Part shown: piece by piece, positions 50,670-56,811 of the stretch
How positions within the stretch are numbered: position 1 is the first letter of the stretch
Layout: each line of letters starts with the position of its first letter
Origin: Antiquaquibacter soli
Lineage (GTDB): Bacteria > Actinomycetota > Actinomycetes > Actinomycetales > Microbacteriaceae
Direction of reading: 5' to 3'
Assembly (NCBI RefSeq): GCF_030580675.1
Contig: NZ_JAUQUB010000001.1
Location: 1,488,001 to 1,552,000 of the forward strand
DNA length: 64,000 nucleotides
Notes under the pieces: generated by a model
The model's input: only the letters and a program-made list of their open reading frames with translations
The model's database searches: none
Told to the model about the DNA's origin: nothing
Position numbers and translations under genes: made by a program

Positions 50670-52748
50670 TTACACGTCGATGCGGTCCCGGTCGAGCCCC
50701 TGGCCGGCGATGATGAACTCCTTGCGCGGTGCGACGTCGTTGCCCATGAGCAGCTCGAAGACGGAGGACGCCATCTCTGCGTCGCCGACGTTGACCCGGC
50801 GCAGTGTGCGGTGCGATCGGTCCATCGTCGTGATGGCGAGCTGGTCGGCGTCCATCTCCCCCAGCCCCTTGTAGCGCTGAATCGGGTCCTGGTACTTCTT
50901 GCCCGACTTCTTGAGACCGGCGAGCACGCCCTGGAGCTCGTCCTCCGAGTAGGTGTAGATCGTCTCGTTCGGCTTCGAGCCCGGGTTGATGACGACGACG
51001 CGGTGCAGCGGCGGCACCGCCGCGTACACACGACCGTCACGGATCATGTCGGGCATGTAGCGGAAGAACAGAGTGAGCAGCAGGGTGCGGATGTGGGCGC
51101 CGTCGACGTCCGCGTCGCTCATGATGATCACCTTGCCGTAGCGCGCCGCCTCGAGATCGAAGCTGCGGCCCGAGCCCGCGCCGATCACCTGGATGATCGA
51201 CGCGCACTCGGCGTTGGAGAGCATGTCCGAGACCGAGGCTTTCTGAACGTTGAGGATCTTGCCCCGGATCGGAAGGAGCGCCTGGTACTCGCTGTCTCGG
51301 GCGAGCTTCGCGGTGCCGAGCGCCGAGTCGCCCTCGACGATGAAGAGCTCGCTGTTGGCGACGTCGTTCGATCGGCAGTCGACGAGCTTGGCGGGCAGAG
51401 ACGAGCTCTCGAGGGCGTTCTTGCGGCGCTGGGTCTCCTTGTGGGCCCGCGCGGAGATCCGCGACTTCATCTCGGCCACGACTTTGTCGAGCAGGAGCGC
51501 GGACTGCGCTTTGTCGTCGCGCTTGGACGACGCGTACTTCGCCGCCATGCCCTTCGCGACGACCCCGGCCACGATCGACCGCACAGCCGGCGTCCCGAGG
51601 ACCTCCTTGGTCTGGCCCTCGAACTGAGGCTCGGGAAGGCGAACCGTGAGCACCGCGGTGAGACCCGCGAGCACGTCATCCTTCTCGAGCTTGTCGTTGC
51701 CGGCCTTCAGCCGACGAGCGTTCTTCTCCACCTCGGCGCGCAAGAACTTGAGCAGGCCCTGCTCGAAGCCGGACTGATGAGTCCCGCCCTTGGGCGTCGC
51801 GATGATATTGACGAAGCTCTTGAACACGGTGTCGTACCCGGTGCCCCAGCGCAGGGCGATGTCCACCTGGCACTCGCGCTGCAGCTCGGTCGGCACCATT
51901 GCCCCGCTCTCCTGAAGGACGGGGACGGTCTCGGTGAAGCCGCCTTCTCCCGTGAGGCGCCAGGTGTCAGTGACCGGGGCGTCCGGGGCGAGGTGCTCGA
52001 CGAACTCCGCGATGCCGCCCTCGAAATGGAACGTCTCGCTGCGCGGCTCCTCGCCTCGCTCGTCGGTGAGGTGCAGGGCGAGGTCCGGCACGAGGAAGGC
52101 CGTCTGCCGCATCCGGTCGAGCAGGTCGTCGGTCTGGAAGGTCGCGCCCTTGGTGAAGATCTGCCGATCGGCCCAGTAGCGGATGCGCGTGCCGGTGACG
52201 CCCTTCGCGACCTTTCCGACGACGCGGAGTTCGCTCCCGGAGACGAACGGGGTGAACGGCGCATCGGGCGTGGGTTCGCCCGAGTCGGCGAACACACCAG
52301 GCTCTCCGCGGTGGAACGACATCGCCCAGGTCTTGCCGTCACGGTCGACCTCGACGTCGAGGCGCTCTGAGAGGGCGTTGACCACGGACGCGCCCACGCC
52401 GTGCAGACCGCCCGAGGCCGCGTAGGACCCACCGCCGAACTTTCCGCCGGCGTGGAGCTTCGTGAACACGACCTCGACGCCCGTGAGCCCCGTCTTCGGC
52501 TCCACGTCGACCGGGATGCCGCGGGCGACGTCCCGGACCTCGACGCTCTGGTCCGGATGCAGGATGACGCTGATGCGATTGCCGTAACCCCCGAGAGCCT
52601 CGTCCACGGAGTTGTCGATGATCTCCCACAGGCAGTGCATGAGACCTCGGGAGTCGGTCGAGCCGATGTACATGCCCGGGCGCTTGCGCACCGCCTCCAA
52701 CCCCTCGAGCACCGAGAGGTGCCTGGCGGAATAGTCGGCAGACGACAT
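50670..52748 (-). CDS. parE: DNA topoisomerase IV subunit B (second type II topoisomerase B subunit)
   Basis: This 692-residue GyrB/ParE-family ATPase has the GHKL nucleotide-binding elements RKRPGMYIGSTDSRG, EIIDNSVDEAL and GGLHGVGASVVNALS. The Toprim metal-binding motifs are IVEGDSALGTAK and MSDADVDGAHIRTLLL, with LLPIRGKILNVQKA between. The usual EGDSAGG reads EGDSALG. Length suits a topoisomerase IV subunit. AAGGAGAG precedes the ATG. It pairs with the A subunit encoded at 45563-48016 on the other strand. Confidence 0.94.
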   Translation of the reverse strand: MSSADYSARHLSVLEGLEAVRKRPGMYIGSTDSRGLMHCLWEIIDNSVDEALGGYGNRISVILHPDQSVEVRDVARGIPVDVEPKTGLTGVEVVFTKLHAGGKFGGGSYAASGGLHGVGASVVNALSERLDVEVDRDGKTWAMSFHRGEPGVFADSGEPTPDAPFTPFVSGSELRVVGKVAKGVTGTRIRYWADRQIFTKGATFQTDDLLDRMRQTAFLVPDLALHLTDERGEEPRSETFHFEGGIAEFVEHLAPDAPVTDTWRLTGEGGFTETVPVLQESGAMVPTELQRECQVDIALRWGTGYDTVFKSFVNIIATPKGGTHQSGFEQGLLKFLRAEVEKNARRLKAGNDKLEKDDVLAGLTAVLTVRLPEPQFEGQTKEVLGTPAVRSIVAGVVAKGMAAKYASSKRDDKAQSALLLDKVVAEMKSRISARAHKETQRRKNALESSSLPAKLVDCRSNDVANSELFIVEGDSALGTAKLARDSEYQALLPIRGKILNVQKASVSDMLSNAECASIIQVIGAGSGRSFDLEAARYGKVIIMSDADVDGAHIRTLLLTLFFRYMPDMIRDGRVYAAVPPLHRVVVINPGSKPNETIYTYSEDELQGVLAGLKKSGKKYQDPIQRYKGLGEMDADQLAITTMDRSHRTLRRVNVGDAEMASSVFELLMGNDVAPRKEFIIAGQGLDRDRIDV

Positions 52749-52908
52749 GGCTCTCCTTAGGTCGGGCAGGCCGGGATCGGACTCCAGCCTAGGCGGCTCG
52801 TCCCGGATACGCGTTCAGCGAAATACCCGTCAATTGACGCAATGCTGTAACACGCTCGTGCTTGTATTGGGTAACGGACATCCACCCGCCAGCCGTAAGG
52901 AGCAGACC

Positions 52909-53139
52909 ATGTCTCAGATCACTACCGAGAACGTCGCCGACGAGCTGGACTACTCGCTCACCGCTCTCGACCGTTGCGACAGCTGCGGCGCGCAGGCGTA
53001 CATCCGGGTGACGCTGTCCAGCGGAGAGCTGCTGTTCTGCGCTCACCACGGGGCGAAGTTCAAGGAGAAGCTGTTCCCGACCGCGCTCAACTGGCACGAC
53101 GAGTCGGCGCGGCTTCTCGAGACCTCCGCCGCCGAGTAA
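52909..53139 (+). CDS. DUF7455 zinc-ribbon protein
   Basis: This 76-residue protein carries a compact zinc-binding motif: RCDSCGAQAYIRV, then ELLFCAHHGAKF, giving C-x2-C and C-x-H-H ligands. It is common in actinobacteria in the parE-rpoD neighbourhood. Its function is unknown; the small ribbon could bind nucleic acid or another protein. The ATG at 52909 has AAGGAG six bases upstream. The racemase-like gene begins 17 bases after its stop. Confidence 0.93.
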   Translation: MSQITTENVADELDYSLTALDRCDSCGAQAYIRVTLSSGELLFCAHHGAKFKEKLFPTALNWHDESARLLETSAAE

Positions 53140-53156: not shown

Positions 53157-53843
53157 GTGAGTTCCGTCGGCCGAGCCGCGGCCGTGCGGCGATCGGCTCT
53201 CGTCGATCTCGCCGCGCTCGAGGCCAACCTGTTGAGCGCGCTCGAGGCCGACCCGGACCTGATCCTAGATGCCCGTGCCGACGCGTACGGCCACGGCGTC
53301 GGCCCGATCATCCGAACGGCGCTCGCGACGGGCGTCGGCACGGTGCGCGTCTCGCCCGGACAGTCCGTGCTCCCGGGCATCCGGCGCTCAGCGCTCATGA
53401 CCGTGCCGTCGAAACGACGCCTCCTCGGTGCGGAGGCCTACGGGGTCGACGGGTCGGGCATCCCGGTCCTCACGCTCGTCGGCGAGGTGATCGCGGTCAA
53501 GCCCGTGGGTGCCGACGCCGGGGTCTCCTATGGCTACACCTATCGCACCCCGGCGCCGACGACCCTCGCCCTCGTCGCCCTCGGCTACGCCGACGGCGTG
53601 CCGCGGCTTGCGTCGAATCGCGCGAGCGTCGCCATCGGCGGTGAGCCGCTCCCGCTCGTCGGCCGCATCGCGATGGACCAGTTCGTCGTCGATTGCGGCG
53701 ATCGCCACCCGAGTGTCGGGGATGACGCCGTACTCTTCGGCCGAAACGCGCCGAGCGCCCTCGACTGGGCTGCGCACACCGAACGCTCCGCTCTCGATCT
53801 GACGGCGGGGATCGGCTCGCGCGTGGAGAGGGTGTACTCGTGA
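53157..53843 (+). CDS. Alanine-racemase-like subunit A: C-terminal domain with vestigial barrel
   Basis: This 228-residue protein keeps the full C-terminal domain of fold type III racemases. Catalytic Tyr125 is in VSYGYTY, Tyr144 in LGYADG and Met173-Asp174 in RIAMDQ. The N-terminal PLP barrel, normally about 240 residues, is reduced to about 110. In its remnant of the PLP motif (ARADAYGHG) residue 40 is Arg where the PLP lysine should be. Alone it cannot bind PLP covalently. Its stop overlaps the next racemase gene by four bases (GTGA). In this superfamily the catalytic Tyr is supplied across the dimer, so it probably serves as the partner of subunit B. The GTG start lacks a clear ribosome site. 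Confidence 0.88.
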   Translation: MSSVGRAAAVRRSALVDLAALEANLLSALEADPDLILDARADAYGHGVGPIIRTALATGVGTVRVSPGQSVLPGIRRSALMTVPSKRRLLGAEAYGVDGSGIPVLTLVGEVIAVKPVGADAGVSYGYTYRTPAPTTLALVALGYADGVPRLASNRASVAIGGEPLPLVGRIAMDQFVVDCGDRHPSVGDDAVLFGRNAPSALDWAAHTERSALDLTAGIGSRVERVYS

Positions 53844-54883
53844 CCGCCCCTCGGATCGAGATCGACCTCGCGGCGTTCCGCCACAACGTCGCCACGCTCA
53901 GCTCGCTCGTCGCGCCGTCACGGACGATGCTCGCCGTCAAGGCGAATGCCTACGGGCACGGGCTCGTCCCGCTCGCGTTCGCGGCGCTCGAGTCCGGCGC
54001 AGACAGCCTCGCCGTCCTCGAGATCCCCGCCGCCCTCGAGCTGCGCCGCGCGGGCATCACCGCGCCGCTCTTCGCGTGGCTGCACGGACCCGGTGCCGAC
54101 TTCGCCGCCGCCGTGGACGCAGGCATCGACCTCGGCGTCTCCGCGACGTGGCAGGTCGAGGCGATCGCGGCGGCCGCGCACTCGGTCCCCGCGCGCATCC
54201 ATCTCAAGGTCGACACCGGTCTCCACCGCAACGGGGCGAACCCCGAGGACTGGCCCGCGCTCGTCGATGCGGCGCTCGCTGCGGAGCGCGCCGGTCGCGT
54301 CGAGATCTCCGCCCTCTGGTCGCACCTCGCCGATGCCTCGCCCGAGGACGATGCCGCCGCCCTCACCCTCTTCCAGGAGTCGGTCGCGGTAGCGGCCGCT
54401 CGGGGATGCACTCCCCCCCTGCTCCACCTGGCCGCGAGCTCCGCGGGCATCCGGATGCCCGCGGCCCGCCTCGGACTCGTGCGGTTCGGGATCGCGGCGT
54501 ACGGCATCTCCCCCTTCGACGACGAGACCGCGCGCGACCTCGGACTCCGACCCGTGATGAGTGTGCGCGCTCCCGTGGCCGCGGTCGACGGCGGAGTGGC
54601 GTCACTCTCTATCGGCAGCGCAGACGGCATCCCCGCGCCCGCCGCGGGTCGCGCCCAAGCGTGGGTCGCCGGTTCGCGCCATCCGATCGTCGAGATCGGC
54701 ATCGACTCCCTCTCGCTCGACGTGGCGGGCTCCACTGTTGCCGTGGGCGACGAAGTCGTGCTGTTCGGCTCGGGCGACGACGGAGAGCCGACCGCCGAAG
54801 AATGGGCCGACTGGGCGGACACGATCGGGGACGAGATCGTGGCCCGGGCAAGCGAGCGCCTTCCCCGCGTCTACCGGGGCTGA
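53840..54883 (+). CDS. Alanine-racemase-like subunit B: PLP barrel with degenerate C-terminal domain
   Basis: This 347-residue protein has a complete PLP barrel. Lys34 and Tyr38 are in AVKANAYGHG, Arg130 is in KVDTGLHRNG and His162 in WSHLAD. LHLAASSAG carries the phosphate-binding Ser, and Arg215 is in VRFGIAAYG. The C-terminal domain is degenerate. Where VSYG should be it reads VASL, so the catalytic Tyr is missing, and the MDQ motif reads IDS. These are the residues kept by the gene just upstream, so the two look complementary. The GTG overlaps the preceding stop and has a GAGAGGG site. Substrate could be alanine or another amino acid. Confidence 0.9.
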   Translation: MTAPRIEIDLAAFRHNVATLSSLVAPSRTMLAVKANAYGHGLVPLAFAALESGADSLAVLEIPAALELRRAGITAPLFAWLHGPGADFAAAVDAGIDLGVSATWQVEAIAAAAHSVPARIHLKVDTGLHRNGANPEDWPALVDAALAAERAGRVEISALWSHLADASPEDDAAALTLFQESVAVAAARGCTPPLLHLAASSAGIRMPAARLGLVRFGIAAYGISPFDDETARDLGLRPVMSVRAPVAAVDGGVASLSIGSADGIPAPAAGRAQAWVAGSRHPIVEIGIDSLSLDVAGSTVAVGDEVVLFGSGDDGEPTAEEWADWADTIGDEIVARASERLPRVYRG

Positions 54884-54886
54884 GCT

Positions 54887-55546
54887 CTAGAGCCGGCCCT
54901 TGATCGCACGACGCGACCGGGCCGCATAGTCGTCCACGAGAGCGATGCTCTCGCCTGCCGCGCCGAGTTCGACTCCCGCCCGATCGGCCGCGACGGTGAG
55001 CAGTTCGTCCGCGAATGTCGGGTTCATCGGCAGGAACGGGCCGTGCAGGGTCGTCGCGATCGACGACCCGAACCGGGCGACGGGCCACTCGACCGGTCGA
55101 CCGTCGACAGTGGTCCGGGCGCCGTGGTTCTCGAACCCGGCGACGTCGTCGCTCCACACCTCACGAACGATCCGGCGGTCGGTGAGGGTTGCATCGCTCG
55201 GCAGCACCTCCGCACCCGGCAGGACCGTGCCATCGGTCAGCACGAGGGATCGGCCCAGGAGCTGCCATCCCCCGGCCACGGCGAGGAAGGGGACCCCGTC
55301 CGCAGCCCACGAGCGCAGGGTCGGCGCGATCGCCGCAAGATCGTCGAGCACCAGCTGCTGGGCGGAGAGCGGACCGCTGCCGATGTGGACCAGGTGGGCG
55401 ACCTCGGGCAGCGGGGCCCCGACCTCGTGATCGACGACGCGCACCTCGGCGCCTCGCCACTGAGCTCGTCGGCGGAGAGCGAGGACATTGCCGACATCGC
55501 CGTTGATCCCGAGCTCTCGGGGGTAGAGGTGGAGGATCGTGATCAC
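54887..55546 (-). CDS. gatD: GatD-like glutamine amidotransferase subunit lacking the catalytic cysteine
   Basis: This 219-residue protein matches GatD, the glutaminase partner of MurT. It has LYPRELGINGDVGNVLALRR at the N terminus, GFENHGARTT, and LHGPFLPMNP with the catalytic His168. At the nucleophile position, where GatD has a Cys in CGGYQ, it reads VAGGWQLLG: Ala91, codon GCC, so glutamine hydrolysis should be impossible. The rest of the fold is intact, so it is not a decayed gene; it may have a structural or substrate-positioning role. The ATG overlaps the murT stop by four bases (ATGA). Confidence 0.9.
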   Translation of the reverse strand: MITILHLYPRELGINGDVGNVLALRRRAQWRGAEVRVVDHEVGAPLPEVAHLVHIGSGPLSAQQLVLDDLAAIAPTLRSWAADGVPFLAVAGGWQLLGRSLVLTDGTVLPGAEVLPSDATLTDRRIVREVWSDDVAGFENHGARTTVDGRPVEWPVARFGSSIATTLHGPFLPMNPTFADELLTVAADRAGVELGAAGESIALVDDYAARSRRAIKGRL

Positions 55547-56811
55547 GGTCGACCCTCCAGCTCGAGGAAGCCCAGCTGCTTGCGGACGAGCATCATCTGC
55601 TCGTAGTTGACGATCATGGTCTTCACCCCGCGAGAGGGCTTCGGCAGGGCGAGAAACGCGTCAAGCGCGGGGGCGAGCTCCGGGATCACCCGGTGCACCG
55701 GGATCTCGTCGTACGCGAACCGGGTGGCGAGCTGCCAGGCCTTCGTGCCCGTGAGGACATCGACATGATCGAGTCGGGACAGATCCGATCCGTAGATCCA
55801 GGACGGATCCGGCGTGCCCTCGTCGACCGCGACGAACACCTGCTCGGGGTGCGGCTCGAGGTAGTCGAGGTTGACCTGAAGGCTCGGCGGGTTCTTCATG
55901 GTGAGCAGTTCGATGTCTTCGCCGTTCACGTGCAGCACCTCGCCGCGACCGTAGACAGGCTCCATGGCGGCGAGCCCGGATGCCACGGCTTCGCTGTCGA
56001 ACCGATCACCGAGCAAGGCACGAGCCATCGCCGTCGCGGCCGCAGCATCGACGGCGTAGTGCAGCCCCCGCGCGGGCAGCGAGACCGGGAAGCGAGCCCC
56101 TCCGACCGAGAGGGCAGCAGTGCGCCCTTCGAGCGACTCGACGGTCACCGCCGAGTCCTTTCGCACGCCCGCCTCTGCGAGAGCAGGATTGTCGCCGCGA
56201 GCGAGCCACGCCGGCCCCGCGTCGAGCAGGGCCGGGTCGACGGCGAACTCCCATCGCTCGGCGCCCGACCCGGCGATCCGCTCCGCTAGGGCGACGAGGT
56301 TGTGGTCGTCGCCGTTGATCACGAGATGCCGGGTGGCGACGCGGGCGAACTGCTCGAGCATCCCCGCGACTCGGGCGGGCTCGTAGAACCGGTTCAGCTG
56401 GTCGACCTGCAGGTTGACGAGCAGCACGCTGTGCGGGGCGAGCTGCTGAGCGAGGCGGGGCCCGAAGGCCTCGTCGACCTCGAGCACCGCGACATCCTCG
56501 CGCAAACGTCCATCGAGCGGAACGCTCGCGAGCATCGCCGAGGCGATGCCCTGCGGGAGGTTGGCACCGGTCGGATTGGAGAAGACCGACACGCCGTGCG
56601 CGCGCAGGATGCTCACCAGCATGTGCGTCGTCGTCGACTTGCCGTTGGACCCCGACACGAACACGACGCCGAGCGGCATCCGCTCGACGGCTCGTGACAG
56701 GAAGCGCGGGTTCAGGGCGAGCAGAACGCGCCCGGGCACGGCCGAGCCGCCGCCTCGCAACCGCAGCAGAGCGCGCGCGATGCGACCGGCGACGATCGCC
56801 AGAGCCGTCAG
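55543..56811 (-). CDS. murT: MurT-like Mur ligase (Mur ligase middle domain plus DUF1727)
   Basis: This protein of about 422 residues has the ATP loop VSGSNGKSTTTHML (about residues 52-65) and NLQVDQLNRFYEP in place of the usual NLFRDQLDRYGE. Its C-terminal DUF1727 domain contains NPPSLQVNLDYL. It has no cysteine at all, so the four-Cys zinc ribbon of typical MurT is gone, and SWIYGSD replaces the SW-x-WD motif of the GatD-facing domain. The start is unusual. The family N terminus is encoded upstream of the first TTG (56760), and the best ribosome site (AGGAG) precedes a CTG at 56811, just after the rpoD stop. Confidence 0.85.
   Translation of the reverse strand: MTALAIVAGRIARALLRLRGGGSAVPGRVLLALNPRFLSRAVERMPLGVVFVSGSNGKSTTTHMLVSILRAHGVSVFSNPTGANLPQGIASAMLASVPLDGRLREDVAVLEVDEAFGPRLAQQLAPHSVLLVNLQVDQLNRFYEPARVAGMLEQFARVATRHLVINGDDHNLVALAERIAGSGAERWEFAVDPALLDAGPAWLARGDNPALAEAGVRKDSAVTVESLEGRTAALSVGGARFPVSLPARGLHYAVDAAAATAMARALLGDRFDSEAVASGLAAMEPVYGRGEVLHVNGEDIELLTMKNPPSLQVNLDYLEPHPEQVFVAVDEGTPDPSWIYGSDLSRLDHVDVLTGTKAWQLATRFAYDEIPVHRVIPELAPALDAFLALPKPSRGVKTMIVNYEQMMLVRKQLGFLELEGRP

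Follow-up and report, generated by a model that had tools for sequence, protein, structure and literature searches.

Two overlapping racemase-like genes of Microbacteriaceae with complementary losses of catalytic residues and a putative composite active site

Racemase-like genes A and B at the parE locus

The window, the whole stretch of 64,000 nucleotides of Antiquaquibacter soli DNA that was analysed, contains two racemase-like genes, subunit A and subunit B (Table 1), which are flanked on one side by a DUF7455 gene and on the other by convergent gatD/murT-like and sigA genes. An earlier note on this DNA had placed both open reading frames and the GTGA that they share at these positions, and reading of the frames and of the sequence found them there. 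Most A-B pairs occupy one conserved site with the order parE-DUF7455-A-B-sigA. Among the 53 other A-B loci, sigA is beside A-B in 44, and murT and gatD are found within the stretch examined in 38; the gatD-like and murT-like assignments are below the NCBIfam cut-offs. A 4-base start-stop overlap (xTGA) is kept in 41 of 54 A-B loci, window included, and translational coupling of A and B through the GTGA overlap is likely.

Table 1. Features of the A-B locus in the window
Feature	Position	Strand	Remarks
Topoisomerase subunit B (gyrB/parE type)	50670..52748	-	site marker; in 52 of 53 other A-B loci
DUF7455 small protein	52747..53139	+	PF24254; directly upstream; in 51 of 53 other A-B loci
Subunit A	53157..53843	+	228 aa; racemase C-terminal catalytic side, barrel cut to about the first 65 residues
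GTGA overlap, A stop and B start	53840..53843	+	4 bases
Subunit B	53840..54883	+	347 aa; complete PLP barrel, C-domain damaged
gatD-like and murT-like genes (lipid II isoglutaminyl synthase type)	54887..56760	-	convergent neighbours

Against Pfam, A covered the whole Ala_racemase_C profile (118 bits) but hit the N-terminal barrel family at residues 16-64 only (15 bits, below the cut-off), in agreement with the earlier claim that A has lost most of the barrel. For B, the match to the N-terminal barrel was complete (187 bits), and that to the C-terminal domain began only at profile position 29 (68 bits). With the alanine racemase model TIGR00492 (NCBIfam alr, cut-off 168), B scored 181.9 and A scored 110; annotation by curated score cut-offs would call B an alanine racemase, and A not. 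In the window (53157-53400), A retains the RADAYGHG segment, the first barrel strand and helix, with Lys changed to Arg, despite the loss of the remaining barrel. This segment is absent from A of the loci L040 and L134-L136 and from the fusions of genus group g71 described below.

Single-chain AF2 models had a pLDDT of 90.1 and a pTM of 0.86 for A, and a pLDDT of 91.8 and a pTM of 0.90 for B. In Foldseek, the A model aligned along solved alanine racemases (5fac, TM 0.84 of the A length, 374 alignment columns). A sequence profile of B and its relatives, in which 5 of the 20 rows are intact racemases, matched 1vfh at 8e-128. Both A and B are under purifying selection: over nine species pairs, of which the most distant are near saturation, dN/dS was 0.14-0.39 for A and 0.05-0.17 for the barrel of B, with one exception of 0.68 in a short stretch, the N part of A, between L071 and L073. 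A sequencing error or a pseudogene was ruled out by this selection, by the overlap and by the reading of 89 two-sided loci.

Complementary residue loss and co-occurrence across the family

In homodimeric alanine racemase, the PLP lysine and the phosphate-binding residues of a site come from the barrel of one subunit, and the catalytic tyrosine and Met-Asp from the C-terminal domain of the other. Subunit A retains the catalytic side (Tyr125, Tyr144 and Met173-Asp174-Gln175) and has Arg40 at the position of the PLP lysine. Subunit B retains the barrel residues Lys34, Tyr38, Arg130, His162, the phosphate Ser and Arg215, and in its C-domain both the catalytic-Tyr loop and MDQ are gone. Domain matches and alignment confirmed these residues of A and B as the earlier note had named them. 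Its statement that B reads VASL in place of VSYG did not stand: the VSYG loop is deleted, and VASL lies beyond the alignment gap. Neither polypeptide thus holds the PLP lysine together with the catalytic tyrosine (Arg40 in A, no Tyr in B), and as judged from the sequences A and B jointly would supply all catalytic residues of one site.

We then aligned 77 A rows and 77 B rows, with 75 loci having both sides, window included; four rows came from loci at contig ends, and the repeats L045 and L093 and the cut row can_L006_71 were dropped. In Geobacillus numbering, every A row has Tyr265 and Met312 (77/77 each) and none has Lys39 (0/77), column 39 being mostly Arg and otherwise Ser, Thr, Gly or missing. 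Column 313 is Asp in 75 and Asn in 2 of the A rows, and column 284 is Tyr in 71 and Phe in 6. On the B side, Arg136, His166 and Arg219 are each present in 77/77 rows, as is Ser or Thr at column 204; Lys39 is present in 76/77 (the remaining row is cut) and Tyr265 in 0/77. Fourteen further pairs, one of which (L177) is the contig of L096, have the same pattern: Tyr265 14/14, Met312 14/14 and Lys39 0/14 on the A side, and Lys39 14/14, the other barrel residues 13/13 and Tyr265 0/13 on the B side, where one B is cut. The complementary pattern has zero exceptions in the 75 + 14 loci, so the predicted co-occurrence of the losses holds across the family.

Because the labels of 41 A and 41 B rows had been assigned using Lys39 and Tyr265, these two columns are not independent for those rows. 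The columns Met312, Asp313, Tyr284, Arg136, His166 and Arg219 are independent of the labels, as are two other findings: at the parE locus the gene labelled A precedes the gene labelled B without exception, and zero rows have lost both Lys39 and Tyr265. As a control, 31 canonical rows retain all these residues where they are not cut; the Bfull, T1 and single groups were sorted by Lys and Tyr and are therefore controls for the other columns only. Two observations run counter to a simple story, namely that Asp313 is still present in 46 of 56 parE-locus B rows and that Gln314 is gone from 15 of 77 A rows.

Among 60 genomes, the window's own included, 8 have the pair, with A and B adjacent in every one; 5 of these genomes belong to the genus group of the window and 3 to other genera, and all 8 also have another racemase match. 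A racemase match of some kind was found in 296 of 299 family genomes. From these matches we considered 50 family genomes of 49 genera that had been picked for at least two matches: all 32 half-domain B-like matches had an A-like partner, with starts less than 1.2 kb apart or in the same frame, a count made by eye, with all 32 loci also read. A separate pair occurs at least once in 28 of the 50 genomes, a fusion in 3, and both in one (G122). A scan of named genomes with the B alignment gave 79 loci, mostly in records labelled Microbacteriaceae or its genera, among them Leifsonia, Herbiconiux, Subtercola, Planctomonas, Diaminobutyricibacter, Homoserinibacter, Protaetiibacter, Pseudolysinimonas and Humibacter, as well as metagenome-assembled genomes labelled Salinibacterium and Rhodoglobus. 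One record titled 'Acidobacteria bacterium', a metagenome-assembled genome, has a typical A-B locus (L046); it is probably mislabelled, as the place of its racemase matches that of G115, a genome of the window's family.

Outside the family, no A-B pair was seen in the list for 102 non-family genomes (of 109 of the order). Leaving aside loci cut by a contig end, neither A nor B was found without its partner in the genomes looked at. What looked like a lone A in G211 proved on closer reading to have B, and the other lone rows are contig ends (L077, L096, L101, L107 and G061). The 8 adjacent pairs in 60 genomes and the 32 partnered B-like matches thus speak against independent occurrence of the two genes, which the earlier note had named as an outcome that would overturn its proposal.

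Split and fused versions at the alr locus

The genome of the window has an intact alanine racemase elsewhere, just before a TsaE-like gene. With this canonical alr present, A-B would be free to change, and the composite A-B site could be real while catalysing a reaction other than racemisation, for example that of a lyase or of a transaminase on a related substrate. We consider this very unlikely, for the Tyr and Met-Asp of the two-base site of the racemase are kept in the A rows.

In four other genus groups the same halves are found at the alr locus itself, as adjacent genes or as one fused chain. Of the 21 loci that are fused or split in this way, 16 were compared with the alr locus of the window's genome and share its neighbours from the glmS-like to the TsaE-like gene, where the names other than TsaE-like are our assignments from likeness. 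In g99 (5/5 genomes), the B-like gene comes first and the A-like gene, in which the Lys is changed to Thr, second. In g42 (6/6) and g95 (5/5), both halves are in one open frame of 601-665 aa, and in g71 (5/5) the barrel, a broken C-domain, an intact second C-domain and TsaE form one protein. Examples of the natural fusions are L124 (629 aa), L126 (621 aa) and L125 (660 aa with TsaE).

The fusion of alanine racemase to TsaE, a tRNA-modification ATPase, with the second C-domain between them, was seen at L125:2573-4555 (+) and at L154-L157, with all five g71 genomes searched. One of the g95 genomes, G280, also carries the parE-locus pair, fused as A-linker-B in a single 832-aa open frame whose linker is about 55 residues long (L147:2682-5180, -). 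An extra racemase, full-length but divergent, occurs in two g95 genomes (L164:3448-4965, -, and L165:2693-3859, +); in it VSYG is replaced by VGYE and MDQ by MNC. In g99 (5/5 searched; L128, L160-L163, L129 and L171-L174), two split pairs are the only racemases over threshold; all of these pairs, including those at the parE locus, were read.

No intact racemase over E 0.001 was found in g42 (6/6), g71 (5/5), g99 (5/5) and G184, 17 genomes, and no further racemase C-domain at E 0.001 was found in g42, g71 and G184. The D-amino-acid transaminase TIGR01121 was over its cut-off in none of 18 genomes, these 17 and the window's own, with weak sub-cut-off matches in 17, and the D-Ala-D-Ala ligase TIGR01205 was over its cut-off in all 18. 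If D-alanine is made in the usual way in the 17 genomes, a complementary pair must make it, although D-alanine could also have another source. Most likely, then, the split or fused versions at the alr locus are the alanine racemase of their genomes, and alanine would be by far the likeliest substrate for them.

These genomes also bear on whether B could be the sole catalyst, using the lysine only in an altered chemistry, with A activating or stabilising it and the Tyr and Met-Asp of A being structural. The PLP barrel of B is complete and B scores above the alr cut-off, and catalytically dead activating paralogues exist in trypanosomatids, as described in passages of PMC3663545. However, the residues missing in B are precisely those that A retains, and the alr-locus split is also found where no other racemase was detected. 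Sole catalysis by B therefore appears unlikely.

Taken together, these results support the composite-site interpretation of the earlier note: the losses co-occur, the genes are not found independently, fusions join the halves, some genomes have only split or fused versions, and the model of A has the racemase fold. We propose, with a probability of roughly 0.86, that A and B are partners in a fold-type III PLP racemase that is an obligate heterodimer and has only one composite active site. They would derive from a duplicated gene, of which B kept the barrel and A the C-terminal catalytic side. Since the Lys and the Tyr of one site are on different subunits, an A-B dimer would have one complete site, Lys34 of B with Tyr125 of A, and one abolished site, while A-A and B-B would have none. 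If so, B expressed alone should fail.

Origins, substrate and known systems

Trees built on samples of the alignment rows rejected a single clade of all degenerate barrels (log-likelihood 160 lower, p-AU 1.5e-33) and also a clade of B and fB (p 6e-5). The degenerate barrels therefore have at least two origins. As to the three alr-locus types fB, sB and tB, neither fB + sB (p 0.279) nor sB + tB (p 0.164) was rejected, and the best tree has fB and tB as one group (91/79). The C-domain tree, which has few columns and poor resolution, did not reject a single clade of all A sides (p 0.257).

An intact racemase tandem is present at the alr locus in L047-L091 (Herbiconiux, Planctomonas and Subtercola loci). 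sB and the intact T1 gene found in Herbiconiux and Subtercola are sisters (99/94), and sA groups with Bfull, the intact second gene of the tandem (SH-aLRT 98). This suggests that the two genes of g99 stem from an intact tandem whose copies lost opposite sides. No listed genome has both A-B and the intact tandem T1-Bfull; we do not count this exclusion as evidence, as one genome set was picked for at least two matches. The ancestor of g99 seems to have had both. The Bfull barrel is nested in B in the barrel trees, but a B clade was not rejected with the core rows (p 0.095) and had p 0.043 with the two most divergent rows. The Bfull C-domain grouped with A in one tree (83/93) and with sA among intact genes in another. 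Bfull may be an ancestor of the two halves or a re-merger of them.

The ratio of the C-domain rate to the barrel rate is 1.22 for B, 1.17 for fB and 1.20 for tB, and 0.80 for canonical alr and 0.75 for T1, as expected if the C-domain of B, fB and tB has lost its catalytic duty. Because the ratio is also raised in the intact Bfull (1.10) and not raised in the split sB (0.69), the rate ratios are supporting but not decisive. Divergence of the C-domain is greater in B than in A in 1241 of 1378 locus-pair comparisons. This divergence, and the loss of most of the barrel from A, would be in keeping with A being a decaying remnant while B works alone or decays too. Such decay is nevertheless the least probable of the explanations considered, as both genes are under purifying selection and co-occur, their start-stop overlap is conserved, the fold of A is confidently predicted, and natural fusions join the halves.

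The parE-locus A-B mostly coexists with another racemase, and its substrate may be alanine or a different amino acid, one possible and attractive candidate being a diamino acid from the group-B cell wall. Cell walls of the family contain D-diamino acids, according to parts of PMC4156110 and PMC10011130, which makes a role as a D-Dab or D-Orn racemase plausible. D- and L-Dab are described for Herbiconiux in part of PMC10011130, and the Herbiconiux loci read have the intact Bfull gene and no A-B. For Humibacter, where A-B is present in L079, Orn and Dab are given in a portion of PMC6346192, and for Salinibacterium a table in PMC7033078 lists Lys/Orn. Since small family genomes with a single racemase match exist in the 299-genome search, Rhodoluna, with D-Ala-D-Dab in a section of PMC4156110, could run counter to the idea of a diamino-acid substrate. 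As murT and gatD are beside A-B in only part of the loci, the neighbourhood does not show a cell-wall role. In the open-licence PubMed Central literature, we found no described source of the group-B cell-wall D-diamino acid. A tentative and rather doubtful extension would be that in Microbacteriaceae the alanine racemase homodimer has repeatedly become a heterodimeric or fused one-site racemase (at least two times, probably three to four), even as the sole alanine racemase, and that D-Dab, D-Orn or D-Lys for the group-B cell wall is made by the parE-locus A-B.

Searches of the open-licence PubMed Central literature gave no account of an alanine racemase that is split or heterodimeric. Alanine racemase is a classic drug target. 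If the proposal is true, a symmetric two-site enzyme has become an asymmetric one-site enzyme, naturally and recurrently, by complementary decay of duplicates. Since an intact single gene, an intact tandem, a split pair and a fused chain can be compared as stages within one family, the debated route from homomer to obligate heteromer is directly testable.

The Alr homodimer (TIGR00492; PF01168 + PF00842; e.g. PDB 1SFT, 5FAC, 1VFH) has the same fold as A-B, and the same catalytic residues when A and B are pooled. In contrast to Alr, which has two sites per dimer, A-B is encoded by two genes with half a site each and would have one. Racemases of the Alr fold for lysine (4DZA), serine (4ECL) and histidine (5ZL6), and of broad specificity (4DYJ), demonstrate that the family changes substrate; unlike the proposed A-B dimer, they are ordinary homo-oligomers. 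The bifunctional MurF-Alr (NF008897) is likewise an alanine racemase in a gene fusion, but its partner is a different enzyme and its racemase part is ordinary, with no fusion to its own complementary half. The nearest systems in kind are the trypanosomatid prozymes (AdoMetDC and the deoxyhypusine synthase heterotetramer), in which, as passages of PMC3663545 describe, duplicated subunits, one of them dead, form a functional heteromer, and which like A-B arose more than once. In the prozymes so described, one paralogue is impaired yet catalytic and is activated by the other, whereas neither A nor B has a complete catalytic site, and the prozymes differ from A-B in fold and in domain of life.
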